This document shows positions 1 to 59,505 of a DNA stretch of 64,000 nucleotides, piece after piece. A program made the position numbers and the translations under genes. The notes beneath the pieces were generated by a model, which saw nothing but the letters and a program-made list of their open reading frames with translations, was not told where the DNA came from and did no database searches. Each line of letters starts with the position of its first letter. Within the stretch, counting starts at the first letter, position 1. Source of the DNA: Corynebacterium uberis (GTDB lineage Bacteria > Actinomycetota > Actinomycetes > Mycobacteriales > Mycobacteriaceae); the NCBI RefSeq assembly GCF_020616335.1, contig NZ_CP085051.1, positions 124,001-188,000 on the forward strand, read 5' to 3'.

Positions 1-2774
1 TCGCGGGTGCCGTATTCGAGGACCAGGTCTTGGCCCTTTTGCTCGATGCCGTTGATGTCGTGGTGGTGGATCTTGCCAAAGGCGGAGACCACGACGACGG
101 GGGTGGCGTCGCCGCCGCGGGGCAGGGTGTACCAGGCGGAGCGGGCCTTGGCGGGGCGCTGTTCGCCTTGCTGGTAGGAGCCCAGGACGGGGACCTTGGT
201 GTAGTCGATGTTGAAGGGCAGTTTTTGGGTGGAGCCGTTGGGGCCCTTTTGGGTTTGGGCGCGGCTGCCGCCGGAGGTGCCGGTGTCTTGGCCGGAGGAG
301 GTGGTGTGGTCGGTGGCGTCGTCGTCGGCAACCTGGTGGGCGATGGTGTCTGAGTTGCTGGCGGAGCTGGTGGAGGAGTCGGCGTCGCCGTTGATGCCCT
401 TGGGCAGTTGGTTGGGGCCGAATCCGCGGTTGCCGTCTTGGTCGAGGGAGTCGCCGAGGGGGGATCCGTCGGCGGGGGTGAGGAAGGACTCGTTGGTGTT
501 GGTTTCTACGAGCACGTCGTCGGCCAGCGCGCAGCCGTGTCCGGTGAGGTTGCGCAGGTTGCCTTTGCCCACGGAGTAGGCGGGGTATTGCTCGGCGAAG
601 CCCTTGGCAAAGCTGCCCAGGGACAGCACGAGCACGGCTGCGGACAGGACGGCGATGGGTGCGGCTGCCAGACCGCGCCAGGTGCGCTTATCGACGCCCC
701 CCTCGTCCACCTGTGCACGGCCGCGCCCGCGGCGCACCTCCCGCAGGAAGGACAGTGCCACGCCGCAGACGAGCACGGCGAGCGCCAGGTAGAGCACCAC
801 GGAGGTGGCAAAGATGGCGTGCAGCTGGATGGGCCGGTCCCACCAGGGCACCGCGAAGCTGGAGACGTACCACCAGCCATTCTTGCCGGCGAGCGCCAGG
901 GCGAAGATCATGAGGAAGGCCCCGCTGATCAGGGTCAGGGCGCGCGCGGATTTCAGCGCGGCGGCGCTGACGGCCACGGCGGCGATGGCGGCCAGGGCCG
1001 CGGCGATGCCGGCGTGGGCACCAAAGTGGTGGGTCCACTTGGTGGGGGTGAACATGAGGAAGAAGAAGGATCCGATGACGATGATGAGCAGCCGCACCGT
1101 CGGCGCGGTGGCCACCCCGGTGATCTCGCGGCGCCGCAGCAGCGTCACGCCCACGATCACCAGCGCTGCCAGGAAGATAAACACCGGGAAGCGCCGCGTG
1201 ATCGAGCCGTCCACGGAGTCGAGGGACAGCAGCGACTGGTAGCGGGCGAACTCCTCATACCAGGGCAGCGCGGGCCCGGTCTGGCTGCGCACCCGGGTGG
1301 CCTCGAGCACGCTGGCTAAGGTCTGGTGGCCGAACACGCCGACCAGGATGGCGGTGCCGGCGGCCAGGAAGGGCCCCACCAGGGCGAGGACGGCGCCGAT
1401 GCGCCGGCCCCGCGAGGCGTCCGGTCCCAGCTGCGGCAGGCGGGCGATGAGGATGCGCAGCAGCGGCGCCAGGGCGGCGACCAGTGCTGCCACGGCCATC
1501 AGGCCGGTGGGCCCGGCCGCCAGGGACAGGGTGGCCAGGATGACGCCGATGGCGGCGGGGAAGAGGCGTCGGGCGGCAATCGCATGCTCGAAGGCGACCC
1601 AGGCGGCCACCGCTCCCAGCGCCACGGCCGGCTCGGGGCGGGTGCCGTTGTTGTAGGGCAGCCAGAAGGTGAGGAACACCAGGGCGGCGGTCCACTGCGC
1701 CAGGCGGCGGCGCCCCAGCTGTCCGCCCAGCAGCGGCAGCAGGAACCGGGAGAGCAGCAGCCAGATGATCAGGGCGGCGATCAGCGCGGGCAGGCGCATC
1801 CACACGGAGGCGGTGGACACGCGGGTCATCAGGCCCAGCAGGTCATAGTAGGGCCAGCCAAACGGCGATTCGGGCACCCCGAACCAGCGGTAGTAGTTGG
1901 CCATGTAGCCGGCGTGGTCGGCGAGTCGGCCCATGGTCAGCAGGTAGCCGTCGTCGGAGGTGTTCGCGCCGAAGATGTGCCAGAAGGCCAGCACCCCGCC
2001 GACCACGGCGTCGATGCCGCGGGGGCGCCACCAGCCGGTGGGCATGACCCGGATGCGCCCGCGCCCATCGGCGCGGTCGAGCACCCGCAGCGCCCACAGG
2101 GAGATGACCAGGCACACGCCGCCGATGATCATCGCCGCGGCCTTCCAGGCGGTGGGTGACGTGGTGAAGCGGGAGTTGATCTGGATGTCGGTGCGCAGGC
2201 CGGCGTCGATAAGCGCGGGTGCCGAGGCCTCGGTGAGTTCCGTGAACACCCCGGCGACCTGCGGGCGCAGGTCTTCTTGCGCGGCATCCTCGTCGGAGGA
2301 GAACTGCGAGCCCGCATCCCCGGAGACCGCCACCGTCGCCCCATCCGGGGTCGTGGAGACCGTCACCAGCGTGTCCTGCGGCAGCGCGGCGACCTGGCGG
2401 GGCGACAGCTCAAAGATCACGTGCCCGCGGGTGACCACATCCATGCCGCCGTCGAAGGAGCGGACGAACAGCCCCCGGTTGAAAGCATCCGTCGAGTCGT
2501 TGGGCAGCGTGCCCAGGATCACCGACTCGTCCTTGCGCAGCTCATGGACCGCACGCACCGGAACCTGGGCCTCCAGCCGATCCGGCGCATAAGAAATCAG
2601 CGGGGCCGTCACCGAGGACACCCGCCCGTCCTGCGGCCATTGCAGCGACGACTGCACCTGGTGGACCGGCAGGAACGGAACCGCAACAAAGAACAAGAAA
2701 CCCACAACGCCGGCGATAGCCGCCACCCGGGCGGCCCACCGAGGTTGAGCTGAGGTCACGACGCTTTCAGACAC
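1..2774 (-). CDS. emb: Arabinosyltransferase Emb, C-terminus cut by window edge
   Basis: Membrane arabinosyltransferase that extends the arabinan of arabinogalactan from decaprenyl-phospho-arabinose; target family of ethambutol. The visible part (about 924 residues) starts with one N-terminal membrane segment (VAAIAGVVGFLFFVAVPFL), then an extracytoplasmic domain of about 170 residues, then a run of hydrophobic segments typical of Emb. The loop after the second segment carries the GANTSDDGYLLTMGR stretch with the paired Asp of GT-C Emb proteins, and a periplasmic C-terminal region begins after about residue 680. The chosen start is GTG at 2774; GTG at 2759 is an alternative and neither has a strong ribosome site. 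It is last in the dprE1-dprE2-aftA-emb series, as in C. glutamicum, which has a single emb rather than the mycobacterial three. The stop codon lies outside the window. Confidence 0.93.
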   Translation of the reverse strand, partial: MSESVVTSAQPRWAARVAAIAGVVGFLFFVAVPFLPVHQVQSSLQWPQDGRVSSVTAPLISYAPDRLEAQVPVRAVHELRKDESVILGTLPNDSTDAFNRGLFVRSFDGGMDVVTRGHVIFELSPRQVAALPQDTLVTVSTTPDGATVAVSGDAGSQFSSDEDAAQEDLRPQVAGVFTELTEASAPALIDAGLRTDIQINSRFTTSPTAWKAAAMIIGGVCLVISLWALRVLDRADGRGRIRVMPTGWWRPRGIDAVVGGVLAFWHIFGANTSDDGYLLTMGRLADHAGYMANYYRWFGVPESPFGWPYYDLLGLMTRVSTASVWMRLPALIAALIIWLLLSRFLLPLLGGQLGRRRLAQWTAALVFLTFWLPYNNGTRPEPAVALGAVAAWVAFEHAIAARRLFPAAIGVILATLSLAAGPTGLMAVAALVAALAPLLRILIARLPQLGPDASRGRRIGAVLALVGPFLAAGTAILVGVFGHQTLASVLEATRVRSQTGPALPWYEEFARYQSLLSLDSVDGSITRRFPVFIFLAALVIVGVTLLRRREITGVATAPTVRLLIIVIGSFFFLMFTPTKWTHHFGAHAGIAAALAAIAAVAVSAAALKSARALTLISGAFLMIFALALAGKNGWWYVSSFAVPWWDRPIQLHAIFATSVVLYLALAVLVCGVALSFLREVRRGRGRAQVDEGGVDKRTWRGLAAAPIAVLSAAVLVLSLGSFAKGFAEQYPAYSVGKGNLRNLTGHGCALADDVLVETNTNESFLTPADGSPLGDSLDQDGNRGFGPNQLPKGINGDADSSTSSASNSDTIAHQVADDDATDHTTSSGQDTGTSGGSRAQTQKGPNGSTQKLPFNIDYTKVPVLGSYQQGEQRPAKARSAWYTLPRGGDATPVVVVSAFGKIHHHDINGIEQKGQDLVLEYGTR

Positions 2775-2871
2775 AGCACGGTAGTCTACGGCAGGTCGGC
2801 GCCCACACCGCTTTCCGACGCCCCTGCTCACCGCTGACCCGCAGCCCGCAGCGCAGCCAGCGGTCCTGCCG

Positions 2872-8049: not shown

Positions 8050-8562
8050 ATGACCCAGCGCACGCCGAGCACCCCCCAGCACTCCCACGACACCGAACAA
8101 CCCGGCTCCCCCGACTCCTCCGACTACCCGGACTACTACGCCCTGGATGACACGCGCGCCGGGCGCCTGACCCAGGCCGGTCTCGCCGCCGCACTCCTGG
8201 CGGTGCATGATTGGGCGCCTAGCCCGCGGGCCGCCCGCGCCTGGCAGGCGGGCATCCTTACCGGTGGGGTGGGGCTGGTGGCCTACCTCAACGCCACGGA
8301 TGAGAATCCGGATAATGATGTCCACGCCATCGTCGAGCGCATGCGCGCGGAGCCGCACGGTGACGTCCTGTCCCCGGCGGCCACGTGGGGGCTGCTCGGC
8401 GGGGTGGTCGCTGGCGGTGTCCTTGCTGCGCGGGGGCTTGCCCGGGCGCGCCGGGCGGCTGCGGGAAGCTTGGGGCGCCGCGGCGTCGCAAAGCCGAATA
8501 CGGTGCTGGGGTTGGCCGTGGGCGCGGTGGTGTTCGCCGCCTCTGAGGTGGCAGCCCAGTGA
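8050..8562 (+). CDS. Hypothetical membrane protein, 170 aa
   Basis: The family is not recognised. The first 50 residues are polar and acidic. Hydrophobic stretches follow at about 75-90 (AGILTGGVGLVAYL), 118-135 (WGLLGGVVAGGVLAARGL) and 152-166 (VLGLAVGAVVFAASE), with a basic loop between the last two, which suggests an integral membrane protein with three short segments. The start is ATG with AGGG upstream. Its stop overlaps the GTG of the next gene by 4 bases (GTGA), indicating translational coupling. Confidence 0.7.
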   Translation: MTQRTPSTPQHSHDTEQPGSPDSSDYPDYYALDDTRAGRLTQAGLAAALLAVHDWAPSPRAARAWQAGILTGGVGLVAYLNATDENPDNDVHAIVERMRAEPHGDVLSPAATWGLLGGVVAGGVLAARGLARARRAAAGSLGRRGVAKPNTVLGLAVGAVVFAASEVAAQ

Positions 8563-8996
8563 TCGCCGTCGTGGATGGGCCGGTGATCTGGCACGTGCAG
8601 ACCACCGGCATTGACGCCGGCATCCTCACCGGGGCGTGGATCACCGAGGACCCCGCGGTCGCCGACTCCTTGCTTGCCGACGCCGCCGCGGTCATCCACC
8701 CCGGAGACGGCACCGTCGAGCGCATCACCGCCACCATCGAGGAGGCGCTCGCGGACTACACGCGGGTTGACGCCGAGGCCCGCTTCGCCGCGCTCGACGC
8801 CCCCGATACCGCCGAACTCACCCAGGCCTACACCGGAGAACCCATCGCCGCGCAGGCCTGGGCGTGCGCCACGGCGCTAGCCAGCCTGATCAGCCAATGG
8901 GCCAGTTATGAAAGCGCACGCAGAGCGCGCAAAAAACTGCAGGAAGCCTACGGAACGGAAGCCCGCGAGCTGCCTTATACCCCGCCGTCTGACTAG
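8559..8996 (+). CDS. Hypothetical protein, 145 aa
   Basis: The family is not recognised. It is an acidic, alanine-rich soluble protein. The N-terminal half has alternating strands and helices (VIWHVQTTGIDAGILTGAWI), and the C-terminal half is mainly helical with a basic RRARKKLQEAYG segment near residue 128. The GTG start lies inside the stop of the preceding membrane protein, so the pair is probably made together. No catalytic motif is visible. Confidence 0.68.
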   Translation: MIAVVDGPVIWHVQTTGIDAGILTGAWITEDPAVADSLLADAAAVIHPGDGTVERITATIEEALADYTRVDAEARFAALDAPDTAELTQAYTGEPIAAQAWACATALASLISQWASYESARRARKKLQEAYGTEARELPYTPPSD

Positions 8997-10436: not shown

Positions 10437-11347
10437 GGGCGCTGGAAACGCTCGGCGCGTCCCAGGCGGTGCAGCCGCAGCCACTCCTTAAAACCGGCGA
10501 GATCGCGGCGCTGCACCAGGAAGAACCACGCGAAGCGGGCGTATTCCTGCGGCAACAGGCGGCGCATGCCGGGCTGGTTCATCAGGTAGCCGCGATTGCG
10601 GTACGTGAAATAGCGTTTGCCCTGGTTATCCGGGTATTGGGTGTGCATCCTCCCGCCGAGGATCGGCTTGAACTCCTCCGAGCCGTCCGGGTGCACGTAC
10701 GCGGTGGTCAGGGCGGTGCCAAACTCCAGCCCGGAGCGCACCAGACGGCGGTGGTACTCCACCTCGTCGCCGCGGATAAACAGCCGGTAGTCCGGCACCC
10801 CGATGACCTCCATCGCGCGCGCGCTGATCAAAGCACCGTTAAACAGGCTGGCTATTCCCTTAACGACGTCCCCCTCCAACTCATCCCTGCGCCGCTTCCA
10901 CGTCAGCCCCTGCCGCAGGGGGAAGGCCAACAACTCCGGGTCTGCGATGTTGCAGACAACCGGGGAGACTTCGTGCAGACCGTGGGTGGCGGCGACGTCG
11001 AAAAGCGTGGACAGCACGTGGGTGTCGGCGGGGTGGCCGTCATCATCGGCGCACCAGATGGCCTGGGCGCCCAGCGCCAGCGCGGTGAGGAACCCGTAGG
11101 CAAAGCCCCCCGCCCCGCCCAGGTTGGTGGCGCTGGGCAGGTAAACACCGCGATCGCCCGCAACCTCACCCAGCAGGTCGCGCACCGCGGACTCGTTGCC
11201 GTTGTCCACCACGATCACCCAGTCCACCGGCTTATCCTGCGAGCACACCATCTCTAGCGAGGTGCGCAGCAGGTCAACGCGGCGATGGGTGACGATGACG
11301 GCGGCGACCGTCTGCGAGGGGTTCAGCGGCGGGATCATGGCAGTCAT
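10433..11347 (-). CDS. glfT1: Galactofuranosyltransferase GlfT1
   Basis: GT2-family transferase that adds the first galactofuranose residues to the decaprenyl-linked GlcNAc-rhamnose acceptor. The 304-residue protein has the nucleotide-sugar fold: VAAVIVTHRR at the N-terminus, NLGGAGGFAYG around residue 75, the metal-binding DDDG at about 101-104 (WCADDDGHP), and DYRLFIRGDEVEY with the catalytic acidic cluster near 188. Length and motifs match Rv3782. In mycobacteria it lies between the wzt and wzm homologues. Here it is separated from wzt by the small-gene cassette at 11.4-13.2 kb. The start may be ATG 11347 or 11338. Confidence 0.93.
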   Translation of the reverse strand: MTAMIPPLNPSQTVAAVIVTHRRVDLLRTSLEMVCSQDKPVDWVIVVDNGNESAVRDLLGEVAGDRGVYLPSATNLGGAGGFAYGFLTALALGAQAIWCADDDGHPADTHVLSTLFDVAATHGLHEVSPVVCNIADPELLAFPLRQGLTWKRRRDELEGDVVKGIASLFNGALISARAMEVIGVPDYRLFIRGDEVEYHRRLVRSGLEFGTALTTAYVHPDGSEEFKPILGGRMHTQYPDNQGKRYFTYRNRGYLMNQPGMRRLLPQEYARFAWFFLVQRRDLAGFKEWLRLHRLGRAERFQRP

Positions 11348-12350: not shown

Positions 12351-12355
12351 GGTAA

Positions 12356-15267: not shown

Positions 15268-16440
15268 ATGGCCTACGATGTCGCGGTTGTTCGCGGCCGC
15301 TATGGCTCGCTGGGGGACGGCTGGACGTATCTGAATGCGCATGATCGGCCGCAGCTGCCGGTGCGGGTATCGGGCGGTGTCAATAAGGCATTCCGCGCAG
15401 CGCCCACACCCACTTTCGGCGCCCATACGCAGGCGGAGGATACGCTGGCGCAGGCCCGCGAGGCGATTGCGGACCTCGTGGGTTCCACCCCGGAGCTGGT
15501 GGTGTTGGGGGCGAGCCTGGAGGGCCTGTACGCGGCCCTGGCTCGGGAGATGCACTCGATGCTGCGCCACGGGTCGTCGATAGTGCTCTCGCACCAGGAT
15601 TCCCCGCGGCTGTCGCGGGCCCTGGAGGGGGTGGCCACGGACGTGCGCTGGGCGCACCCGGACCTGGGCACCGGCGAGCTGCCGGCGTTCCAATTCAGCG
15701 AGATCATTGACTCCACCACCCGGCTGGTATCCATCCCGGCCGCCCACGAGCTGCTGGGCACCGTCACCCCGGTCCGCGAGATCGTCGAGCGCGCCCACCA
15801 GCGGGCCCGCCTGTGGGTCCTGGTTGATGTGTCCGCGTACGCGCCGTACAAGCTTATCGACGTCGACGACTGGGACGCAGACATCCTCGCCATCGATCTC
15901 GCACAGATGGGGGGACCTGAAGTTTCCGCCCTGATTTTCCGCACCAACCGCATGCTCGGCAGGCTGGACAACCCCGAGGCCCTTGCCAGCCGGGTCTCCG
16001 CCGGACTTGCCGGCGGGGTGGCCCCCCTGGTCGACCACTACGCCAACCTTGTCGACGACGCCTCCGGCACCCGCCGCGACCGGCTGCGCTACAGCCTGCC
16101 CCAGCTGGACAACTACCTGCACTCCCTGGGCCGCGACCTCACCTTCTTCCTCGGCGCGCTGCCGTCGGTCCACATCTTTGGAGTCAGCGGGGAAGTAGCC
16201 GCCGGCGCGCAGGCGGACCGCACCGCCCGCATCTCCTTTGCGGTCAAGGGTGTCCCCGCGGAAACCGTCCAGGGGCGACTACTAGACAACGGCCTATTTA
16301 CCGCGCTAACCCCCCACACCCCGCTGCTGCGCGACATGGGGGCAGAAGAAATCGGCGGGGCCGTCACCGTATCGCTGGCGCCGTTTAACACCAACCATGA
16401 CATCGACCACCTCACCCGGGTGGTCGCCTCCCTGGCCTAA
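15268..16440 (+). CDS. Cysteine-desulfurase-like protein lacking the PLP lysine
   Basis: A fold-type I (class V aminotransferase) protein of 390 residues, syntenic with Rv3778c. Family features are the WTYLNAHDRPQLP start, LVVLGASLEGLYAAL, and VLVDVSAYAPYKLIDVDDWDADILAIDL. Where active enzymes have S-x-H-K-l-x-G-P carrying the PLP Schiff-base lysine, this protein reads DLAQMGGPEVSAL, with Gln213 at the lysine position and Ala at the histidine position. The usual desulfurase Cys loop was not found either. It is therefore probably not a PLP enzyme of the usual kind; a regulatory or scaffold role is possible. It is divergent from wzm. Confidence 0.82.
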   Translation: MAYDVAVVRGRYGSLGDGWTYLNAHDRPQLPVRVSGGVNKAFRAAPTPTFGAHTQAEDTLAQAREAIADLVGSTPELVVLGASLEGLYAALAREMHSMLRHGSSIVLSHQDSPRLSRALEGVATDVRWAHPDLGTGELPAFQFSEIIDSTTRLVSIPAAHELLGTVTPVREIVERAHQRARLWVLVDVSAYAPYKLIDVDDWDADILAIDLAQMGGPEVSALIFRTNRMLGRLDNPEALASRVSAGLAGGVAPLVDHYANLVDDASGTRRDRLRYSLPQLDNYLHSLGRDLTFFLGALPSVHIFGVSGEVAAGAQADRTARISFAVKGVPAETVQGRLLDNGLFTALTPHTPLLRDMGAEEIGGAVTVSLAPFNTNHDIDHLTRVVASLA

Positions 16441-16457: not shown

Positions 16458-17456
16458 TTAAGCGTTCGGCTGACCTTCCGGCTGCTCCACCGTCAGCACG
16501 ATCTTGCCCCGATTGTCGCCGCTGGTGAGCGCGGCGTGGGCGGCGGCGGCGTCGGCAAGCGGGAACGTGCGCACCGCGTGACGCACCGCACCCGCGGCGA
16601 CCATCGGCCACACATTCTCCACCGTCTGCGCCACGATGCGCGCCTTGTCCTCCACGGCTCGCGCCCGCAGCGTGGTGGCCAAGACCGACTGGCGGCGCGG
16701 CAGCATCGCGCCCAGATTCAGCTCCGCCTTGCGCCCGCCCTGCAAACCGATGATCACCAGCCGGCCGTCCAGGGCCAGGCAGCGCATGTTGGAATCCAGA
16801 TACTTCGCCCCGATGATGTCCAGAATCACATCACAGGACCCGCCCAGCTCTTCGACGAAGTCCTGGGTGCGGTAATTGATCACCGTATCCGCCCCCAGCT
16901 CGCGGCAATAGTCCGCATTGGCCTGCGAGCCCACCGTCACCGCCACCTTGGCGCCCAGCGCCTTGGCTACCTGAATTGCCATCGTGCCAATGCCCCCGGC
17001 GCCGCCATGAATGAGCACCCGCTCACCGGCGCGCAGCCGGGCCGTCATCACCAGGTTCGACCACACCGTGCAGGCGGTCTCCACAAACCCGGCGGCCTCC
17101 ACCACGCTCATCCCCTGCGGGATCGGCGTGAGCTGGCCAGCGGGCACGGCCACGAACTGCGCATACCCACCCCCGGCGAGCAGGCAGCCGACCTGGCTAC
17201 CTACGGCCACATCCGTATCCCCGGCATCCACGACCGTGCCCGCGCACTCCAAGCCCAGGATCTCACTGGCACCCGGCGGCGGCGGATAATGCCCAGCCAC
17301 CTGCAACACGTCACCCCGGTTGACCCCCGCCGCGGCGACACGCACCAGCACCTCGCCGGGCGCCAACTGCGGAACCGCCACGTCCGTCAGTTCCAGGGTG
17401 TGGGTATCCGTTGCCTTCATCGTTGCCGCCGCTGCGGGCGTTGAGGTGGTAGTCAT
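16458..17456 (-). CDS. NADPH:quinone oxidoreductase, PIG3 type (Rv3777-like)
   Basis: Medium-chain dehydrogenase/reductase without zinc, 332 residues. The N-terminal GroES-like half contains VRVAAAGVNRGDVLQ and GHYPPPPGASEILGLECAG, typical of PIG3/QOR members. The Rossmann part carries LIHGGAGGIGTMAIQ for NADPH binding at about residue 150 and VAVTVGSQAN. It is expected to reduce quinones with NADPH in the cytoplasm; the physiological substrate is unknown. It converges on the preceding gene with a 17-base gap, and the same two genes neighbour each other in mycobacteria. An alternative start at the internal MKATDTHTLEL is possible. Confidence 0.88.
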   Translation of the reverse strand: MTTTSTPAAAATMKATDTHTLELTDVAVPQLAPGEVLVRVAAAGVNRGDVLQVAGHYPPPPGASEILGLECAGTVVDAGDTDVAVGSQVGCLLAGGGYAQFVAVPAGQLTPIPQGMSVVEAAGFVETACTVWSNLVMTARLRAGERVLIHGGAGGIGTMAIQVAKALGAKVAVTVGSQANADYCRELGADTVINYRTQDFVEELGGSCDVILDIIGAKYLDSNMRCLALDGRLVIIGLQGGRKAELNLGAMLPRRQSVLATTLRARAVEDKARIVAQTVENVWPMVAAGAVRHAVRTFPLADAAAAHAALTSGDNRGKIVLTVEQPEGQPNA

Positions 17457-17664: not shown

Positions 17665-17786
17665 GCTTGCCAGCCAGCATTGCCGCGCGCTTGTCGACGC
17701 CGCCGCCCCCAGGCCTGCGGAGAAGGTCTCGGAGACAACTGGGGAGTTAAGGGATTTCTTGCAGGATTCCTTCGGATGAAAGACTC

Positions 17787-20364: not shown

Positions 20365-20566
20365 GCAGGGAGTCTACCGCGTAACCGCGGATTGAGCGGG
20401 GGCTGAGCGGGGGTGCGGGGTGTGGAGTGGGTGAGGGGAGGGGGCGTCGATAAGCACCAAACAGGCGCCACGGCACGCGGTTGGACCCGCGGCCGGGAAT
20501 TGGGGTAGCATTCATCACGGTTCATGGTGCGCGCCCGTGGGGTGTGTGCAATGAGCTTGTTTACGC

Positions 20567-22210: not shown

Positions 22211-22223
22211 GCTTATCGACGCC
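22211..22223 (+). repeat. One copy of the dispersed motif GCTTNTCGACGCC
   Basis: Representative intergenic copy of a 13-base motif found 14 times in the window. Plus orientation starts: 686, 17689, 22211, 28055, 34244, 37494, 40143, 58390. Minus orientation starts: 2202, 20443, 24059, 36710, 38763, 45217. The N is A in eight copies, C in four, G in one and T in one. Several copies extend to GCTTATCGACGCCCCC. Copies occur inside genes in different frames and between genes. Near matches with one change include 15852, 19308, 54358 and 62825. The function is unknown; see the finding. Confidence 0.85.
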
Positions 22224-36720: not shown

Positions 36721-36753
36721 GCGTCGCGGCGTCGGCTGGGTAGGCTGGTGGGC

Positions 36754-41515: not shown

Positions 41516-42819
41516 CGTGCGGTCTCCTCAGCGGTCAGGCGGGCGAGGTCTTTCTTCAAATCTCTAAAGGCGGTGTAGTTGGCCAACACTTCAACCCGCC
41601 CGGGTGGGCAGGCGCGGATGGCCGCCACGGGGTCGGGGATGTGCTCGTGGTCAATGTCCGCGTAGGTCAGGCGCACGGCAAGGTCGGTGCCGCGCTGCCC
41701 GGCGGCCTTGACGGACAGGGACTCGAAGTCCTCGAAGCGCACGTCCCACAGCCAGGACAGGTCCTCGCCGTCGGCAACCTGCCCGTTGACGGCGATGACC
41801 AGGCCGTCGGCGCTGCGGTCCACCATGGACAGGGCCTCCTGCCACCCGGCCGGGTTTTTGGCCAGCAGCAGGTGGATCTGGTGGTCGCCCAGGGTGACGG
41901 TGGAGTAGCGCCCGGCGACGTTGTCTACGCCCTCGGCGGCGCGCACGGCGTCCGTCAGGGGGATGTTGCAGGCGCCCACGGCGGCGGCGATGGCCTGGGC
42001 GGCGTTGCCGCGGTTGGCCCGCCCAGGAAGGGTCAGGGTGAGTTCGGTGTCGCCCTCGGGGGTGTGCAGGCCGGCGTCGTCGACGCTCCAGGTGGGGGTG
42101 GGGCGGCGGAAGGGGCGGCCGTCGGGAAGCGGTTTGACGGCGTACCAGTCGTCCCCATCGTGGACGATGTGCCCGCCGGTGCGGGGGCAGGATACGGCGT
42201 CGCCGACCCAGCCGGCGCCCGCGGATACCCACACGACGTTGGGGGCGTCATAGGCCACGGAGGTCATCAGGACGTCATCGCAGTTGGCCACCACCAGCAT
42301 GTCCGGGTGGGCGGCCACGGCGCCGCGCAGCGCGCGTTCGATCTTGTTGATCTCGCCCACGCGGTCGAGCTGGTCGCGGGTGAGGTTGAGCAGCACCAGG
42401 GCGGTGGGGTGGAGGCGATCAGCCACGGCCGGGACGTGGAGTTCATCGCACTCCAGGACCAGGGTCTCGGCGTCGCGGTGCGCCAACAGCGCGGAGATGA
42501 TGCCGGCGTCCATGTTGTCGCCGCCGTCATTGGTGGCCACGGTGGAGTGGGTACGCACCGCCGCGGCGAGCATCCGGGTGGTGGTGGATTTGCCGTTGGT
42601 CCCGGTCACCAGGAGGCAGGGCCGCCCGCCGCCGAGGTTCTCCATGATGGTGGGGTCGATGGCTTGGGCGATTAGCCCGCCGATCATGCCTCCGGCGCCG
42701 CGTCCGGAGACTCGGGATGCGGTGGTGGCTAGCCGCGCGGAGGATACCGCCGCTAGTCCGCGCAGCCGGCGCAGCCGGCGCGTTACGAAGTCAGGGGCCG
42801 GTCTGAATTCGGGACTCAT
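41512..42819 (-). CDS. murT: Lipid II isoglutaminyl synthase, Mur-ligase subunit MurT
   Basis: ATP-dependent ligase subunit, 435 residues. The P-loop is CLLVTGTNGKSTTTRM, the central domain has LVLECDELHVPAVADRLHPTALVLLNLTRDQLDR, and the C-terminal DUF1727 domain has LLLAKNPAGWQEAL. Staphylococcal MurT carries a four-cysteine zinc ribbon in the middle domain. Here only one cysteine of that insertion remains (VSCPRTGGHIVHDGDDW), so the ribbon is lost or metal-free. ATG 42819 is chosen; the frame upstream adds 8 codons from a non-ATG start. It overlaps gatD. Confidence 0.93.
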   Translation of the reverse strand: MSPEFRPAPDFVTRRLRRLRGLAAVSSARLATTASRVSGRGAGGMIGGLIAQAIDPTIMENLGGGRPCLLVTGTNGKSTTTRMLAAAVRTHSTVATNDGGDNMDAGIISALLAHRDAETLVLECDELHVPAVADRLHPTALVLLNLTRDQLDRVGEINKIERALRGAVAAHPDMLVVANCDDVLMTSVAYDAPNVVWVSAGAGWVGDAVSCPRTGGHIVHDGDDWYAVKPLPDGRPFRRPTPTWSVDDAGLHTPEGDTELTLTLPGRANRGNAAQAIAAAVGACNIPLTDAVRAAEGVDNVAGRYSTVTLGDHQIHLLLAKNPAGWQEALSMVDRSADGLVIAVNGQVADGEDLSWLWDVRFEDFESLSVKAAGQRGTDLAVRLTYADIDHEHIPDPVAAIRACPPGRVEVLANYTAFRDLKKDLARLTAEETAR

Positions 42820-42839: not shown

Positions 42840-44213
42840 TCACTCCTGCGTGCGCGGGTTCGGCTTAGTTTGTGTATTGCTTGCCGGTTGGTTGCGCCCC
42901 GCGCCGCCGCGCCCGGACCGGGAGCCGCGCCCAGAGCGCCGTCCGCGACCGCCCCGCCGGGCCTGGCCACCGCGTCCCCCGCGCCCGCCACGCCCACCCT
43001 GGGAGCGGCGTTCACCCTTCTCACCCTTCTCACCCTTTTCGCCCTTCCCGCCGCGCGCGGCGCGGGGGCGCTCATCGGGGGTGGGTGCGGCATCCGGCTT
43101 CGCTGCCGTGGGCGTGTCGGCCGCCTGCGCTGCGGTGCGCGCGGCGGTGAGGAAGGCGGCGTCGGCAAGCAGGGGGATGCCCTTGCGGGCGGCGTGCATG
43201 GCCTTGCCCCGCAGGTTCGTGGTGGCGTTGCACACCACCAGGGAGGTCGCCCGGCTGAGCTTTTCGGAGTAGGCGAGTCCGGCGTCCTGGGCGGCGGCGA
43301 TGAGGACGTCCGGGTCGATGGCCGTTTCGGGGGCGAGGACAACTTCCATGCCGGGCAGCAGCGGGGTGCCGGGGCGCCAGGTGCCGGGGTTGTCCGTGGT
43401 GCGGGGCGCGGCGGCGGCGCTCACGCGCAGGTCGCTGCGTTGCAGGCCGACGGCGTCGGCACGCAGGGTCTGCGGATCGATGCGCGTGAGCGGGTGGTCC
43501 CCATCTGCGGCGAGCGCCAGGTAGGTGGCGATGAGCAGTTCAGTGGCGGCGCGGGTGGTCGCCGCCTCCGGCTGGGCCGCCCGGGCGAGGCTGGCGGTGG
43601 GCGGCTCCACATCCGCAACCCCCGCAACGGCGGCGAGGTGCGCCAGGCGGGTATCGCTCAGCGGAATCTCGGCGCGCCGGGCGGTGGCCAAGACGTCAAT
43701 GATCGCGGTGGGCGTGGGGATGTGGCCGACGCGCTGGCGGCGCGCCCCCTTCCCGGAGCGGGCGCCATCGCGGCGGTTGCGGCCCCGCGAACGGTTAGCA
43801 CGGGCGGCGGCGTTCATGGTTCGGCGCGCCTCGCTGATGATAAATCCCCAGGTAAACGCGGCATCGTGGACAACCAGCTCGCGGCCGTCTAAGAGTTTGT
43901 CCAGCTGCTTGAGCAGCGTGGTCCACCGGCGCCCGTGGTGGATGTCCTCCGGGGTCAGCCCGTGATAATGCACCGGCCCGAGGTTGGTGTCCGGGCCGGG
44001 GTTGACCACGGCGTGGAATTCCTCCACGATGCGCGGCGCCGCACTCGCCTGCGGCGTGGCCGACTCCTCCGCCGCGGCGGGGTCACACACGAGCGCGTCA
44101 ATGGCGACGATCCTCCCCGTGCTGGGGTGGATGCCGGTGGTCTGGAGGGTGAGGGCCACGAACTGCCCGGCGGGGGCGTGCGAGGTGGCCTGGGCGGCAT
44201 CGTGAGTAGTCAT
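42840..44213 (-). CDS. Degenerate exonuclease domain protein with BRCT-like domain and RGG tail
   Basis: A 457-residue protein in the position of the mycobacterial dnaQ homologue (Rv3711c). The N-terminal part follows the DnaQ exonuclease fold, but FVALTLQTTGIHPSTGRIV replaces the catalytic D-x-E with T-x-Q. The second motif reads VVHDAAFTWGFI without its Asp, and no H-x-A-x-x-D motif is seen. A BRCT-like region follows at about 290-345 (VLIAAAQDAGLAYSEKLSRATSLVVCN), then a KGE repeat and a long Arg/Gly tail. It is probably not a nuclease; nucleic acid or protein binding is more likely. ATG 44213 has GGGGGC upstream. Confidence 0.85.
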   Translation of the reverse strand: MTTHDAAQATSHAPAGQFVALTLQTTGIHPSTGRIVAIDALVCDPAAAEESATPQASAAPRIVEEFHAVVNPGPDTNLGPVHYHGLTPEDIHHGRRWTTLLKQLDKLLDGRELVVHDAAFTWGFIISEARRTMNAAARANRSRGRNRRDGARSGKGARRQRVGHIPTPTAIIDVLATARRAEIPLSDTRLAHLAAVAGVADVEPPTASLARAAQPEAATTRAATELLIATYLALAADGDHPLTRIDPQTLRADAVGLQRSDLRVSAAAAPRTTDNPGTWRPGTPLLPGMEVVLAPETAIDPDVLIAAAQDAGLAYSEKLSRATSLVVCNATTNLRGKAMHAARKGIPLLADAAFLTAARTAAQAADTPTAAKPDAAPTPDERPRAARGGKGEKGEKGEKGERRSQGGRGGRGGRGGQARRGGRGRRSGRGSRSGRGGAGRNQPASNTQTKPNPRTQE

Positions 44214-44247: not shown

Positions 44248-46143
44248 TTAATCGCGTGGGCGGAACATGAACCACAGGCTGCCCAGGACCAGCAGGATGC
44301 CGCTGCCCAGCAGGATCAGCGCGGTGGAGGTGCCCAGGGACAGGTCGTCGGTGATCTTGAAGTACCCCAGGGTGGCCACGGTCACCGCCAGCGCACCGGC
44401 GATCACGCCCAGCGCCGCCAGCCAGGACATGCCATCCATCGATCCGCCGTCCTTGCTCACCCTGCTTGCCGACGCCCCACTGACCTTGCGGTGCGAGCCC
44501 GTCACCGGCGCAGGCTCGGGGTCCGGCACGCGCGGAATCATTGCGGTTTCAAAGTCGTCCGCCGGGGCCGCCGGGGCGGGAGCCTCCGCGAAATGGGAGC
44601 CCAGGCGCGCATTGGGGTAGGGCAGCGGCGGGTAGGCGTCATCGACCTTATCGTCGGTGAACTGCGAATAGTAGGCGTCCTGCTGCGGCTCCTCGGCCTG
44701 GGGTTCCGGCTGCGGGGCAGCCGGCGCGGGCTCGGGCGCCTGCACCTCCGGTTGGGCAGCGTAGGACTGCGCATAGGAGGAGGCCTCATAAGAGGGGGCC
44801 TCGTAGGTGGCGGGCTCATAGTGGTGCGCGCCGCCTTGCTGCTCGTAGCTGGGCTGGCTGTAACCCTGTTGCTCGTACGCGGCGTGGCCGTAGCCCTGCT
44901 GCTCATAGCTGGGCTGGTCATATTCAGCGGCCGCCGGCTGTTGCGCCGCGGGCGCCTCCGGCTGCCAGTAGGGGGCCGCCCCGTGCCGCGGCTGCTGGGC
45001 GGCGGAATAGTCCTCGTAGGAAGAATACGGCGTGGCCGGGGCGATCGGCTCCGCCTCCACCACGGGTTCCGGGGTGGGCTCCGGCTCCGGCTCCGGATCC
45101 GGGGCTGCGTGGCGAGCAACAGACTCCACCGCGGGGAGGGGAGCCGGCTCCGGGTTGCGCACCGCGGTGGCCCAGCCCGTGGTCGGGGAGGCGGGCCAGC
45201 TTCCGGTGCCAAAGGGGGCGTCGAGAAGCGAATCAGAATGCGCGGACTCCGTGGACGGAGACGACGGCGAACTAATCGCCTTCAGGGGGCCGCCGATGGG
45301 GGTGTGCAGCGGCTCCGCAAGCTCCTCGCCGGAGACCGTCACCGCCCAAGTGTTGGGGGTATGGGAGGAGACGATCATGGGGAACTCGCCGGTGGCCGGC
45401 TGGTAGGGGTCGAGCGCCGGCAGCGGAGAGATCGTCGGCTCCAAAGCAGACTCATCCATCCGCGTCGTCGAGGCGGCGCTGATGATCACCCGGCGCTGGC
45501 CATCGGAGTCATAACAGAACGCGCGGGCCACCGGAACCAGGCCCAACATCTCATAATGGTCTACGATGCCCCGGATGTCCGCGGAGTCATAGGCAGACAG
45601 TGGGCCAAAGACGCGATCATCCGCGATGGCAACCACGGCGTCATCGACCACCGTCAACGTCACCAACCACTGCGAAGGAATGTTGAGATCGATCAGCCGC
45701 TGCGCGTCACCAGCCGTGACATCAATATCCCGCAACTCGCCCTCAGGCAGCAGCGCCCACTCCCCAGTAGGCGGAACATTAGTGGGCATAACAAAAACCG
45801 GGGCCGGGAAATACAACTCGCCGCTGAGCGTTCCGCTGCCAGGAGTCAGCGCAATCCGCGCGTTGACCTCGGGGGTAGCCCCCCGGTTGAGTAGGTGATC
45901 CAACTGCGGATACGTTTGGCGCAGGTTGCGCGGCAGCCGCCCAATACGGGTCTTGCCGTGGCTGACCAGCAGGCCCCCGGTCACCGGGTCCGGGGTGAGA
46001 CTAAAGGTAGTAGAAGTAACCCCATCGCGGGCCACTTGCGCGCCTAAGAGCGAAAACAGGATCGCTTGGCTAGAACCCTCGACAGGGACCGCTGCTCCGC
46101 CGTCCTCATAGAACGCAGGCAACAGGTACGGGGTCGTACTCAT
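44248..46143 (-). CDS. Large low-complexity membrane-anchored protein, 631 aa
   Basis: The family is not recognised. The N-terminal ~300 residues are folded and acidic (TTPYLLPAFYEDGGAAVPV, TTFSLTPDPVTGGLLVSHGKT, LINDL-like helices). A Pro/Glu/Ala region follows, then about 130 residues rich in Tyr, Gln, Ser and Ala with YEQQGY and YEAPSY repeats, and another Pro/Glu stretch. The C-terminus has two membrane helices (MSWLAALGVIAGALAVTVATLGYF and ALILLGSGILLVLGSLWFMF) and a short RPRD tail. This suggests a protein anchored by its C-terminus with most of it in the cytoplasm. ATG 46143 follows GAGGAG. It may interact with envelope or division proteins, but nothing proves it. Confidence 0.82.
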   Translation of the reverse strand: MSTTPYLLPAFYEDGGAAVPVEGSSQAILFSLLGAQVARDGVTSTTFSLTPDPVTGGLLVSHGKTRIGRLPRNLRQTYPQLDHLLNRGATPEVNARIALTPGSGTLSGELYFPAPVFVMPTNVPPTGEWALLPEGELRDIDVTAGDAQRLIDLNIPSQWLVTLTVVDDAVVAIADDRVFGPLSAYDSADIRGIVDHYEMLGLVPVARAFCYDSDGQRRVIISAASTTRMDESALEPTISPLPALDPYQPATGEFPMIVSSHTPNTWAVTVSGEELAEPLHTPIGGPLKAISSPSSPSTESAHSDSLLDAPFGTGSWPASPTTGWATAVRNPEPAPLPAVESVARHAAPDPEPEPEPTPEPVVEAEPIAPATPYSSYEDYSAAQQPRHGAAPYWQPEAPAAQQPAAAEYDQPSYEQQGYGHAAYEQQGYSQPSYEQQGGAHHYEPATYEAPSYEASSYAQSYAAQPEVQAPEPAPAAPQPEPQAEEPQQDAYYSQFTDDKVDDAYPPLPYPNARLGSHFAEAPAPAAPADDFETAMIPRVPDPEPAPVTGSHRKVSGASASRVSKDGGSMDGMSWLAALGVIAGALAVTVATLGYFKITDDLSLGTSTALILLGSGILLVLGSLWFMFRPRD

Positions 46144-48199: not shown

Positions 48200-49263
48200 C
48201 GGGAGCCCCCAGCGTCGGCAGGCGAATTGCCACCTGCGGCGGCGATGTCCCCGCTGCCAGCGATGGCAAAGTAGACGTCGTCAAGCGTGGGCGGGACAAG
48301 CGAGACATCGGTGATGGCATCATCCTCGCCGTCCCACAGCTCGAGGGCGCGCACGAGGGTGCGGTGGCCGTCGGGAGCATCCACCCGCACAGCGACGCCC
48401 TCGCGGCGCGCCGCCATGCCGTGCTCACCCGCCATGGCCTCTAGGCGCTCGGCGTCTTCTGGGGAGGCCATGGTGATCAGGCACACCGTGGTGCCGTAGC
48501 GCTCCTTGAGCTCGCCCGGGGTGCCCTCGTCGAGGACCCGGCCGCCGGCGAGCACGGCGACGCGGTCGGCGAGCTGGTCGGCTTCATCCAGATACTGGGT
48601 GGTCAGCAGGATCGATGTGCCATCAGCCGCGAGGTTGCGCACCGTGTCCCACACGGAGTTGCGGGCCGCAGGATCCAGGCCGGTCGTCGGCTCATCAAGA
48701 AACAGCAGGGCAGGAGGCACGGTCAGCGACGCGGCGATGTCCAGGCGCCGGCGCATGCCGCCGGAGTATTCAGACACCAGGCGCCCGCCGGCCGCGACGA
48801 GGTCGAACCGCTCCAACAGGGCATCGGCGCGCGCCCCCGCGTCGCGGGCCCGCAGCCCAGCAAGACGGCCGAAGTACACGAGGTTTTCCTGCCCGGTCAG
48901 CTCCTCATCGACCGCCGCATACTGGCCGGTCAGCGCGATGGCGGAGCGCACTCCGGCAGGCTCATCGGCCAGGTTGTGGCCGTCCACGATCACGGTGCCG
49001 TCGGAGGCGGGCAGCAGGGTAGAAAGCACGTTGACCAGCGTGGTCTTGCCGGCGCCATTAGCGCCGAGTACCGCGAGGATCCCGCCGCGGGGGATATCTA
49101 GATCAACGCCGCGCAGGATCTCTGCGCGCGTCTTTTTCTTCCCCAGGTGGCACCGCAGTCCCCGGACCGTGAGGACCAGGTTGGGTTCGTCGTCGGTGGC
49201 CGGTACCGGCGCGACGCTGCTCGTGGGGGCGTCTCTGTGTGTGAGATGTCGTGCGTCTTTCAT
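48196..49263 (-). CDS. Daunorubicin-resistance-type ABC transporter ATPase
   Basis: A 355-residue ATPase of the DrrA group. It has Walker A LGANGAGKTTLVNVLSTLL, Q-loop LTGQYAAVDEELTG, signature YSGGMRRRLDIAASL, Walker B ALLFLDEPTTGLDP, and TTQYLDEADQLADRVAVL. The C-terminal DrrA extension is present (LERWR-like ALELWDGEDDAITDVSLVPPTLDDVYFAI). First of a three-gene operon with its two permeases. It is divergent from the exporter-fold gene at 49599. Confidence 0.92.
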   Translation of the reverse strand: MKDARHLTHRDAPTSSVAPVPATDDEPNLVLTVRGLRCHLGKKKTRAEILRGVDLDIPRGGILAVLGANGAGKTTLVNVLSTLLPASDGTVIVDGHNLADEPAGVRSAIALTGQYAAVDEELTGQENLVYFGRLAGLRARDAGARADALLERFDLVAAGGRLVSEYSGGMRRRLDIAASLTVPPALLFLDEPTTGLDPAARNSVWDTVRNLAADGTSILLTTQYLDEADQLADRVAVLAGGRVLDEGTPGELKERYGTTVCLITMASPEDAERLEAMAGEHGMAARREGVAVRVDAPDGHRTLVRALELWDGEDDAITDVSLVPPTLDDVYFAIAGSGDIAAAGGNSPADAGGSR

Positions 49264-53092: not shown

Positions 53093-54571
53093 CTACTCGT
53101 CTTGGCCGCGCAAGAACCGCACCGTGCGTTCGAGCGCCGCGCTGGTGCAGGTCTCGGCAGCGGCCAGCTTGCCTGCCGTCACGTGCAGGAGGCAGTCGCA
53201 GCAGCGGGCCAAAAGCTCCACGTCGTGGGTGACCACCAGGACGGAGGCGCCCTGGTTAGCCAAGGTAGCTAAGAGCTGGGCTACCTGATCCATGCGGCGC
53301 AGGTCGAGCCCGCTGGTGGGTTCGTCGAAAACGATCACCTCGCGCTGGCTGAGTACCGCGGAGGCAATGGCGACGCGCTGGCGCTCACCGCCAGACAGGG
53401 ACATTGGGTGCCGATCGCGCTGATCGGCCAGGTCTAGCGCGCCAAGTACCTCGGCCAGTCGAGCATCATCTGCCGCAGGCTTCCCACCGGTACCGATCAT
53501 CACGTCCGCGTCGACGCTCTCCCCGAACAGCTGGTGGTTGACATCCTGCATCACCAGGTAGGAGTGGCGCAGCCGGTGCCGCGGCGAGGCCAGGGTCTGT
53601 TCCCCGATCCGCACGGTGCCCCGTGCTCGTGGCTCGATACCCGTCAGTGCGCGAACAAAGGTGGACTTACCGGCGCCATTGCGCCCAACCACCCCGATCA
53701 CCTGGCCCCGTGGTAGCTGCGCATGTCTGATGTCCAGGGCAGGAGCACTGGCCTGTGGGTACGTCAGGCGCAGGTTGTTCAGCGTCAGGGTGTCCTCCAC
53801 GGCCCGGGGTTGACGATGGACCTCGGGCACCACCCGTGTGGAGCGCAGCCCCAGGTGGTGCAGCTCATCGTCGCTCAGGGCCCGGAACTGCTCGCCGGTG
53901 AGGTCGTGGGCGATGGCACCGTGGCTTAAGACCAGGACCCGGTCGGCCAGATCCGCCAGGTACGAGAGCCGATGCTCAGCCACCAGGATGGTCCGGCCCT
54001 GGGCCTTCCACCGGGCGATAACCTCGTGGAGCTCATCGACGGCCGCCAGGTCGAGGTTTGCCGATGGCTCGTCGAGCAGCAGCACATCAGGGTGCATCGC
54101 CGCCACGGAGGCGCACGCCACCTTCTGCTTCTGCCCGCCCGAGAGCGCAAACAGGCTCCGGTCGAGCAGGTCCGTCATGTGGAAGTCCGCGCTCACCGCG
54201 CCGATTCGCCGCCGGATCTCCGTAGGCGCTACGCCCAGGTTCTCGCAGCCAAACGCCAGCTCGCTGCTGACCTCCAGGGTGAAGAACTGTGACTTGGGGT
54301 TTTGGAAAACCGAACCGACGCGCTCGGCGATCTGTTGTGGGGGAGCGTGCGTGATGGGGGCGTCGTTAAGCAGAACCTCCCCAGAGATGTGGGCCTGACC
54401 GAAAGCGAAAGCCACCCCATTGATCAGGCGAAGCATGCTGGATTTTCCGCAGCCGGACTCGCCGCACACCACCACCAGCTGCCCCGCGGCAATAGACACA
54501 GACAGATCGCGGAGCACCGGCTCGGCGTCGTCCTCGCCGTAGCGCATCGACACGTCGCGCAACTCAATCAT
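53093..54571 (-). CDS. ECF transporter ATPase with two fused ABC domains
   Basis: A 492-residue protein with two complete ABC domains. The first has VVCGESGCGKSSMLRLING, LSGGQKQKVACASVAAM and LLLDEPSANLD. The second (from about 265) has VVGRNGAGKSTFVRALTG, LSGGERQRVAIASAVL and VIVFDEPTSGLD. It corresponds to EcfA and EcfA' fused in one chain and powers the importer with the T and S components encoded upstream. Overlaps the EcfT gene by 4 bases. Confidence 0.92.
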   Translation of the reverse strand: MIELRDVSMRYGEDDAEPVLRDLSVSIAAGQLVVVCGESGCGKSSMLRLINGVAFAFGQAHISGEVLLNDAPITHAPPQQIAERVGSVFQNPKSQFFTLEVSSELAFGCENLGVAPTEIRRRIGAVSADFHMTDLLDRSLFALSGGQKQKVACASVAAMHPDVLLLDEPSANLDLAAVDELHEVIARWKAQGRTILVAEHRLSYLADLADRVLVLSHGAIAHDLTGEQFRALSDDELHHLGLRSTRVVPEVHRQPRAVEDTLTLNNLRLTYPQASAPALDIRHAQLPRGQVIGVVGRNGAGKSTFVRALTGIEPRARGTVRIGEQTLASPRHRLRHSYLVMQDVNHQLFGESVDADVMIGTGGKPAADDARLAEVLGALDLADQRDRHPMSLSGGERQRVAIASAVLSQREVIVFDEPTSGLDLRRMDQVAQLLATLANQGASVLVVTHDVELLARCCDCLLHVTAGKLAAAETCTSAALERTVRFLRGQDE

Positions 54572-58252: not shown

Positions 58253-58308
58253 ACCCATCACACATCCGTCGCGCATGTTCTTCCCGCTTGGACCTCCCGT
58301 GGTTTAGC

Positions 58309-59505
58309 ATGACCCAGGTGAATGCCGCACCGGAGAGCCTGCCTGCCCAGGGGGGCGTCGATACGCGCCCCGTAGCGCCCGCCATCGATGCTTATCGACG
58401 CCCCCTCCCCCCGCAATCCATCTGGCTTGCGGCAGTGCTCATCTTCCTGATCACCCTGCTCACGCGCATTATTGTGCTGGCAGTCATGGCCCACGCCAAC
58501 GATGCCAGCGTGGCGCATCAGCTCACCCGCTGGGACGCCGGGCACTACGATCGCATCGCCCGGCGCGGCTACTTCGACGGCCCGGATATTTCCCAGCGCG
58601 CCCCCGAGCGCACCCTGCTGGCCTTCTTCCCCGCGCTGCCCATGATCATGCGCGCCGGGCACGCGGTGCTGGGCCTAGACACGGTCACCGTGGCGCTGCT
58701 GTTCAACGCCGTGATGACCGTGGCGCTCATCGCCGCGGCCATGGCCATCGCGGTGCGGATGGGCGCGGGCCTGCGGGGCCGACTAGCCGCCGGCATCCTC
58801 GTGTCCGCCGCGCCGATGACCCTGACCTACACCATGCCGTACACGGAGGCCGCCTTCGGTGCGATCGCCTTCTGGGCGGTGGTGGCCATGATGGACCGCC
58901 GCTGGTGGCTCGCCGGGCTGCTGACCTTTGTGTGCGGATTCTTCCGCCTGACTGCCGTGGACCTGTGGCTGGTGCTGGCGGTGGTCGTGGCGGTGACGGC
59001 GCGCCGGGATTGGCGAGCGTGGGTGGCGGTGGCGCTCTCCCCACTGTCCATCGTGGGCTTTTTGGGGTGGGCCTCTGCGCGGACCGCGGACTACGGCGGC
59101 TACTTTGGCATTCAGAAAGAGGGCTGGCATTCCGGCTTTGACCTGGGGGTGGCCACGGTGAAGTTCTGCTGGAAGACGCTGACCACGGGCAATGAGGTGG
59201 GCTATCTGCTCAGCGTGGGGGTCATGCTCCTCGCCGCCGGATCGGTGGCGCTGACCATCGGGCGGGCCCCGCTGCCGGTGTGGCTCTTCGGCGCCGCGAT
59301 CACCGCCAACGTGTTGCTATCTGACGGCATCATGCATTCGCGCCCCCGGCTGCTGCTGCCCGCCGTGATTCTGCTCATCCCGCTGGCCGTGCGCCGGGTG
59401 CGCACCACCGGGTGGACGTTCTATTGGGCGTTCATGGTCGGCTGGGTGGCCTTCGGGGCGTGGTTTTCTGCCTACATGATGGTGGTGTTCAAGTGGGCGA
59501 TTTAG
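58309..59505 (+). CDS. Membrane protein, PIG-V-like mannosyltransferase candidate
   Basis: A 398-residue protein with about ten hydrophobic segments. The first extracytoplasmic loop carries LTRWDAGHYDRIARRGYFDG, which matches the W-D-x-x-x-Y-x-x-I-A-x-x-G-Y pattern of PIG-V/GT-C mannosyltransferases that use polyprenyl-phospho-mannose. MPYTEAAFGAIAFWAV (P-Y-x-E) is also a PIG-V feature. In C. glutamicum an unassigned membrane gene lies at this place between leuA and lysC. ATG 58309 has no clear ribosome site and might be leaderless; the frame is open further upstream, antisense to the leuL leader. Role in glycolipid mannosylation is inferred. Confidence 0.8.
   Translation: MTQVNAAPESLPAQGGVDTRPVAPAIDAYRRPLPPQSIWLAAVLIFLITLLTRIIVLAVMAHANDASVAHQLTRWDAGHYDRIARRGYFDGPDISQRAPERTLLAFFPALPMIMRAGHAVLGLDTVTVALLFNAVMTVALIAAAMAIAVRMGAGLRGRLAAGILVSAAPMTLTYTMPYTEAAFGAIAFWAVVAMMDRRWWLAGLLTFVCGFFRLTAVDLWLVLAVVVAVTARRDWRAWVAVALSPLSIVGFLGWASARTADYGGYFGIQKEGWHSGFDLGVATVKFCWKTLTTGNEVGYLLSVGVMLLAAGSVALTIGRAPLPVWLFGAAITANVLLSDGIMHSRPRLLLPAVILLIPLAVRRVRTTGWTFYWAFMVGWVAFGAWFSAYMMVVFKWAI

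Follow-up and report, generated by a model that had tools for sequence, protein, structure and literature searches.

A strand-balanced word dispersed through Corynebacterium chromosomes resembles a DNA-uptake sequence

We analyzed a 64,000-base stretch of the Corynebacterium uberis genome (bases 124001–188000 of its single 2,533,318-base contig, NZ_CP085051.1; hereafter the window), in which a first-pass annotation had noticed a dispersed 13-base word, GCTTNTCGACGCC. The motif to which this word belongs probably serves as a DNA-uptake-type self-tag of the genus Corynebacterium, used in natural transformation through ComEA, ComEC, and a Tad (Flp) pilus. We favor uptake because the copy number, lack of polarity, spread over reading frames, strict core with a weaker tail, confinement to a lineage, dialects, scarcity in mobile DNA, and accompanying competence genes resemble those of the DNA uptake sequences (DUS) and uptake signal sequences (USS) of other bacteria. 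The first-pass annotation had drawn the same analogy, which fits the copy number, strand balance, genus limits, dialects, mobile scarcity, and competence genes reported below.

The window contains 15 exact copies of GCTTNTCGACGCC, 8 on the plus and 7 on the minus strand. These comprise the 14 sites already listed, all of them real, and one additional site; eight of the 15 have the sequence GCTTATCGACGCC, as had been stated, and two near matches cited with them are cores, one with a corrected start (Table 1). Far fewer than one copy had been expected by chance, and 100 dinucleotide-preserving shuffles of the window gave a mean and a maximum of 0. The core of the motif, GCTTNNCGACG, occurs 30 times in the window, 15 times per strand, compared to 0.87 expected from the shuffles. 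In the whole genome, we counted 534 copies of GCTTNTCGACGCC (267 per strand) and 1011 cores (~1 per 2.5 kb), whereas the same patterns read backwards, which served as the reversed control throughout, gave 0 and 58, respectively. A 464-kb genome sample, consisting of the window and twenty 20-kb stretches, held 96 full words compared to 0.29 expected from a fourth-order Markov model of the sample (~330-fold) and 176 cores compared to 4.8 expected from a third-order model (~37-fold). Pieces of the motif top all lists of contiguous 9- to 12-mers present 14 or more times in this sample, and cores occur in each of the 21 stretches. The genome-wide count thus lies far above the Markov expectation and the excess is not limited to the window, the two points on which the first-pass annotation had staked its observation.

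Within the 464-kb sample, zero single-base variants were found at positions 7–11 and 13; position 5 accepts any base (A, then C, G, and T), positions 3, 6, and 12 vary slightly, and C is preferred in a weaker tail at positions 14–16. The 13-mer originally described is real, but the core shared across the genus is the shorter and wider pattern GCTTNNCGACG, an 11-mer with nine fixed bases. A mobile repeat was rejected, as the flanks share only the weak C-rich tail at positions 14–16 and C-rich third codon positions. Cores in the sample fall equally on the two strands (87 plus, 89 minus), and strand is independent of replichore (55 plus and 52 minus vs. 32 plus and 37 minus; Fisher p = 0.54), the terminus region being suggested by a shift of GC skew, between 1.21 and 1.36 Mb, from largely positive to largely negative values. 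Copies lie in different reading frames and between genes, as the first-pass annotation had observed. Among the 96 full motifs, 41 read in the sense frame CTT NTC GAC GCC, 4 in another sense frame, and 23 antisense, with 27 outside called genes and 1 partly overlapping; the non-coding share is probably overstated because the gene caller was crude (coding fraction 0.78). Gaps between sites in the source genome are more even than chance, with a coefficient of variation of 0.77 compared to 0.935 in simulations (P = 0.0016) and 9.7% of gaps shorter than 500 bp compared to 18.6% simulated (P = 0.0008).

We counted the motif in 242 Corynebacterium genomes, using a core count of at least 3 times the reversed control as the threshold. 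The full 13-mer occurs 0 to 779 times per genome, and the core passes the threshold in 173 genomes (median 1076, range 115–1964), so that related genomes do share it, as the first-pass annotation had proposed to check. Strands are balanced in these 173 genomes (z mean −0.01, standard deviation 0.79), with |z| > 3 in none. In 24 genomes from 15 other families of the order, for which the 13-mer only was counted, 0–13 copies were found, approximately the control level. Species names were available for 50 genomes, drawn from 80 comEC loci fetched. Assignment of the genus to Corynebacterium agrees with named loci from genomes that match members of the window's genus in both their forward and their reverse counts. 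Forward/reverse core counts are high in C. striatum (575/560), C. glaucum (769/784), C. pilosum (919/972), C. aurimucosum (609/570), C. tuberculostearicum (431/444), and C. propinquum (594/602), and low in C. macginleyi (29/13), Corynebacterium sp. KPL1814 (26/64), C. spheniscorum (21/14), and C. phocae (7/16). Genome G118 (3,309,401 bases), whose length suggests C. glutamicum ATCC 13032, has 1183 cores.

A second spelling, GCTTNNCGATG, with CGATG (dialect II) in place of CGACG (dialect I), is present at 490–1337 copies in 14 of the 242 genomes. Thirteen of these have only 26–97 CGACG cores, and G080 has both spellings. Identical counts identify C. macginleyi (G148), KPL1814 (G188), MSK130 (G183), J010B-136 (G196), and C. 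phoceense (G170) as CGATG genomes. By the thresholds used, 56 genomes have neither main spelling; they include G084, G088, G191, and G215, in which 159–223 CGATG copies accompany background CGACG counts and possibly represent a decaying set. When mapped on a tree of ComEC from the 50 named genomes, the CGATG label requires three changes, all forced by well-supported branches, although bootstrap values were not yet fully stable and C. phoceense contributes a short row that sits on a long branch. All three changes could be gains, or one gain might, for instance, have been accompanied by two losses. The KPL1814/macginleyi/MSK130 group is nested in an otherwise CGACG clade, with C. tuberculostearicum and C. 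kefirresidentii as neighbors. Where sites could be aligned across dialect groups, motif CGACG stood opposite CGATG 78 times and opposite CGACG 8 times, compared to 201 and 282 for other CGACG words. These pooled comparisons suggest, but do not establish, that CGACG sites were converted in place to CGATG.

Several low-core genomes use related words and others apparently none, as judged from counts of TNNTCGACGCCAC and TTNNTGACGCC. Among 70 genomes in which it was counted, TNNTCGACGCCAC reached 124–157 copies in G015, G010, and G241 and 61–70 in G066, G033, G093, and G181, compared to 2–9 for its reversed control in these seven; counts of 62–88 came from three genomes of dialect I, a motif in which the word can occur, and the rest had at most 35. 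In G131, TTNNTGACGCC occurred 16 times compared to 0.9 expected in 80 kb. A de novo word search of 28 low-core genomes (80–120 kb in ten, 40 kb in eighteen) returned the CGATG spelling or a piece of it as the top word in G006, G144, G063, G152, and G237 and placed it high on the list for G083. G015, G010, and G131 gave related words, and G066, G181, and G265 weaker ones; local repeats swamped the search in G077, G164, and G033. No convincing related word emerged from the stretches searched in 12 of the 28 (G030, G172, G085, G070, G084, G014, G234, G244, G253, G257, G088, and G124). A different candidate came from G071, where words of the TGACGNCGCGG type lie far above expectation (CGCGNCGTCA, 26 copies vs. 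1.2 expected in 40 kb) and may represent a further dialect or be unrelated.

Sites are also conserved between species. In comparisons of the 80 comEC loci, with each pair taken once (pairs are not independent) and 60 composition-shuffled words as the control, the core was intact in the partner for 784 of 5145 sites at 70–80% identity, compared to 407 of 7672 for shuffled words. The corresponding counts were 452/816 vs. 202/1066 at 80–85% identity, 192/230 vs. 96/354 at 85–90%, and 68/81 vs. 61/130 at 90–95%. Neighboring in-phase words, used as a second control, gave a concordant result.

The 203 kb read from six plasmids of high-copy species contain 8 cores, compared to 75.5 expected from chromosomal density. 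Seven of the eight lie between 5777 and 13119 of C. striatum pTP10, in a block annotated as tetAB followed by genes for dihydroorotate dehydrogenase, undecaprenyl-diphosphatase, mshC, and phosphoribosyl-ATP diphosphatase. The other 42 kb of the 50 kb read from this plasmid, with transposases and the remaining resistance genes, contain zero cores, and the distribution suggests that the motif-bearing block came from a Corynebacterium chromosome. Two phages of 42–43 kb each, BFK20 and phi674, have 1 and 0 cores, respectively. In G118, the largest gap among the 96 listed plus-strand GCTTRTCGACGCC sites (of 111) spans 249,561 bases, from 1.76 to 2.01 Mb (P = 0.018 under uniform sites). A 10-kb piece within this gap had zero cores, and three of its six proteins match PHROG families (ATPase, HNH endonuclease, and transglycosylase/endolysin). 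These matches are consistent with, though not proof of, a prophage; the CGP3 prophage of C. glutamicum had been expected in this region before the search.

Genes for the putative uptake machinery are nearly universal. ComEC was found in 241 of 242 genomes, the sole exception being G215, which is 90% complete. An actinobacterial Tad ATPase was found in all 80 genomes tested (79 above cut-off), and the ComEA profile gave a match at E 0.001 in every one of the 80, with 75 above cut-off, although a second, long-framed protein also matches this profile in many genomes. For G170 (C. phoceense), a protein of the long-framed kind matches best and ComEA is unsure; in the named genome that corresponds to it, the ComEC frame is only 263 amino acids long. 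The comEA gene adjoins comEC in the loci inspected (for example, in G019), and all 31 tad loci encode Flp and two TadE-like pseudopilins. In the source genome, the Tad ATPase gene lies at contig positions 219373–220404 and comEA at 1846325–1846513. The idea that genomes lost the motif because they lack ComEC, the Tad ATPase, or ComEA is unsupported, as all three are nearly universal. Of the 39 genomes lacking dialect I, 5 (G084, G085, G170, G179, and G234) had a ComEA match below the cut-off, compared to 0 of 41 with it (p = 0.024, ignoring kinship), a weak hint that ComEA shortfall is linked to absence of this dialect. Fifteen of the 80 genomes, all of them lacking both main dialects, gave the weakest Tad ATPase matches (E 1e-109 to 1e-123). 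They include the TNNTCGACGCCAC genomes G015, G010, G066, G033, and G181, and the coincidence with motif class may reflect kinship. Most listed genomes have ComEC frames of ~450–700 amino acids, and several with neither main dialect have frames of 727–810. The ComEC of G019, a dialect I genome, is 741 amino acids long, and Pfam shows only the Competence domain in it.

Like the motif, the DUS of Neisseriaceae, which are read by the minor pilin ComP, are abundant and come in dialects: they number thousands per genome, accumulate in the core genome, and form eight dialects that follow phylogeny, according to the available text of PMC3630211. DUS are also distributed atypically in mobile elements compared to the chromosome (PMC7371117, available text). 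The USS of Pasteurellaceae resemble the motif in having a short core, with ~1300 copies in H. influenzae (PMC5217627, available text), and, like its dialects, come in two versions within the family (PMC3630211, same text). The Corynebacterium motif differs from DUS in its phylum (Actinomycetota), its unrelated word, the mycolate envelope of its hosts, and the lack of close inverted pairs in the sequences analyzed. The pilus genes found here are of the Tad/Flp type and not those of classical type IV pili, which were not searched for, and both uptake and receptor are predicted here. From USS, the motif differs in word, phylum, and machinery. Closely spaced inverted pairs at terminators are common for both DUS and USS, where they are frequent but not essential. 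The USS core has a weaker flanking part, as in the lean to C at positions 14–16 here; dependence of uptake on USS is experimental, whereas for the Corynebacterium motif it is predicted. Micrococcus luteus, a member of the same phylum, undergoes Tad/Flp-dependent transformation for which tad genes are required, and the available text of PMC4322843 does not mention an uptake sequence. Corynebacterium likewise encodes a tad locus, ComEA, and ComEC, and its transformation would be of the same kind.

In the mechanism we propose, a surface DNA receptor would prefer motif-bearing duplex DNA. Corynebacteria generally possess an outer mycolate layer, a second barrier like that of the Gram-negative bacteria in which DUS and USS act; therefore, the receptor would most likely be part of, or served by, a Tad (Flp-type) pilus crossing this layer. 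DNA would then pass to ComEA, and a single strand would enter through ComEC and recombine. Motif-bearing fragments would enter more often, so recombination would spread and repair motif alleles, and copies would pile up in shared chromosomal DNA and stay rare in plasmids and phages. When the receptor's preference shifts, the spelling of the motif would track it, giving dialects. From the genomic patterns above we infer that uptake occurs, that it depends on the motif, which protein reads the motif, and that recombination drives its spread.

Other dispersed words invite different explanations. Chi and KOPS (FtsK-orienting polar sequences) are, like the motif, short words scattered over chromosomes, but both are polarized by replication direction and the motif is not. 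The KOPS-like segregation motif that had been suggested therefore does not hold: strand is independent of replichore (Fisher p = 0.54), and 0 of the 173 genomes are imbalanced. The same lack of polarity counts against the recombination hotspot that had also been raised, or a Chi-like signal read by a RecBCD- or AdnAB-type nuclease-helicase or another recombination or repair factor that spares self DNA. Such a signal would be dispersed, chromosomal, and scarce in the phages and plasmids counted, its density would be of the order of that of Chi, and the mild enrichment near position 1 would suit it. Known Chi words are, however, G-rich, 5–8 bases long, and biased to one strand relative to replication, whereas the motif is longer (nine fixed bases in an 11-mer), enriched ~37-fold as the core to 330-fold as the full word, and spelled differently within one genus, which we do not know of for Chi; this alternative explains less than uptake, and we consider it unlikely. 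Binding of the motif by a nucleoid or chromosome-organizing protein, in principle like matS, SBS (SlmA-binding sites), or Noc sites, would accommodate the even spacing in the source genome, the slight excess toward position 1, the conservation of sites, and their scarcity in extrachromosomal DNA. Known sites of that type number tens to about a hundred per genome, with a marked distribution relative to origin or terminus; about a thousand copies, some in all 21 stretches sampled, and background levels in some species of the same genus make an organizing protein quite unlikely.

A self mark for a defense system, acting through modification or nuclease exemption rather than uptake, would also be scarce in phages and plasmids, and dialects could track changing defense genes. 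It would not predict conserved sites or even spacing, we know of no defense system that uses an exempting word of 9–13 bases, and we regard it as very unlikely. Scarcely tenable is the idea that protein coding or codon-pair bias generates the word. Its commonest placement is indeed a single sense frame (41 of 96 in the sample), but 55 of the 96 are antisense, in another frame, partly overlapping, or outside genes as called by the crude caller, the excess over a fourth-order Markov model is 330-fold, and a one-base-changed spelling occurs at 490–1337 places in 14 genomes. On frame spread, Markov excess, and dialects, coding bias was rejected, in line with the first-pass annotation's view that coding cannot explain the copies.

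Several observations weigh against the uptake-sequence interpretation. ComEC is present in 55 of the 56 genomes that have neither main dialect, and the 29 of these that were tested all have a Tad ATPase and a ComEA-type match. By-eye inspection of Flp and TadE alignments from 31 loci tied no residue obviously to dialect and identified no receptor. The 75.5 cores expected on plasmids derive from host chromosomal density (in a sequenced genome of the species) and are uncorrected for a plasmid GC content of 0.52–0.59. The 78:8 vs. 201:282 contrast at dialect sites pools related loci, single pairs giving only 3:0 and 2:0, and a dialect II stretch compared with three relatives gave 1:1, 1:0, and 1:1. 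Spacing is not even in G118, where the listed plus-strand sites have a coefficient of variation of 1.16 and one 250-kb gap. Density within 250 kb of position 1 of the source genome is mildly raised (4.9 vs. 3.3 per 10 kb, p = 0.014), which uptake does not predict, and the 464-kb sample has no excess of close inverted pairs (1 gap shorter than 60 bp vs. 3.7 expected). Finally, the literature matches listed include no report of natural transformation of any Corynebacterium.

On balance, we lean toward the broader view that Corynebacterium independently evolved sequence-specific uptake via a Tad pilus across a mycolate outer membrane, as a third family with uptake sequences and evolving dialects and the first outside Proteobacteria, possibly including C. 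glutamicum if G118 is that species, an industrial model. Sequence-selective uptake is known only in Neisseriaceae and Pasteurellaceae, according to the available text of a 2025 paper (PMC12616744). Corynebacterium was among the genomes scanned for spaced motifs in PMC5217627, whose available text reports only clustered regularly interspaced short palindromic repeat (CRISPR) pairs for them. Neither the motif nor any Corynebacterium uptake sequence appears among the literature matches listed, from a search that left out most subscription papers and all preprints; a literal string search of papers found no 13-mer, and shorter forms only in three papers, titled on Salmonella and tuberculosis. If the uptake interpretation is true, a genus that includes skin commensals, pathogens, and industrial producers can undergo natural transformation or could until recently, which would account for selective DNA exchange among Corynebacterium species and offer simple genetics for C. 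glutamicum. Approximately 186 of the 242 species (173 with the main core and 13 with CGATG) could be used to find the receptor and to study the evolution of uptake specificity.

Table 1. Full motifs and cores in the window (positions are those of the 64,000-base stretch).
Feature	Position	Strand	Remark
full motif GCTTATCGACGCC	686..698	+	exact match
full motif GCTTATCGACGCC	2202..2214	-	exact match
full motif GCTTGTCGACGCC	17689..17701	+	exact match
full motif GCTTATCGACGCC	20443..20455	-	exact match
full motif GCTTATCGACGCC	22211..22223	+	exact match
full motif GCTTCTCGACGCC	24059..24071	-	exact match
full motif GCTTATCGACGCC	28055..28067	+	exact match
full motif GCTTCTCGACGCC	32454..32466	-	exact match; absent from the first-pass list
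full motif GCTTCTCGACGCC	34244..34256	+	exact match
full motif GCTTATCGACGCC	36710..36722	-	exact match
full motif GCTTCTCGACGCC	37494..37506	+	exact match
full motif GCTTATCGACGCC	38763..38775	-	exact match
full motif GCTTTTCGACGCC	40143..40155	+	exact match
full motif GCTTCTCGACGCC	45217..45229	-	exact match
full motif GCTTATCGACGCC	58390..58402	+	exact match
core GCTTNNCGACG only	2810..2820	+	
core GCTTNNCGACG only	8484..8494	-	
core GCTTNNCGACG only	8672..8682	+	
core GCTTNNCGACG only	10996..11006	-	
core GCTTATCGACG	15852..15862	+	near match cited earlier
core GCTTNNCGACG only	16550..16560	-	
core GCTTNNCGACG only	18321..18331	-	
core GCTTATCGACG	19306..19316	+	near match earlier placed at 19308
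core GCTTNNCGACG only	24964..24974	+	
core GCTTNNCGACG only	42120..42130	-	
core GCTTNNCGACG only	43160..43170	-	
core GCTTNNCGACG only	44464..44474	+	
core GCTTNNCGACG only	48276..48286	-	
core GCTTNNCGACG only	54361..54371	-	
core GCTTNNCGACG only	62824..62834	+	

Other repeats were seen in single genomes. A ACCCGGATAACCC-type repeat is enriched in G131 (CCGGATAACCC, 9 copies vs. 0.04 expected), and a separate repeat around ACCAAACCAGGAGACCC heads the word list in 80 kb of G242.

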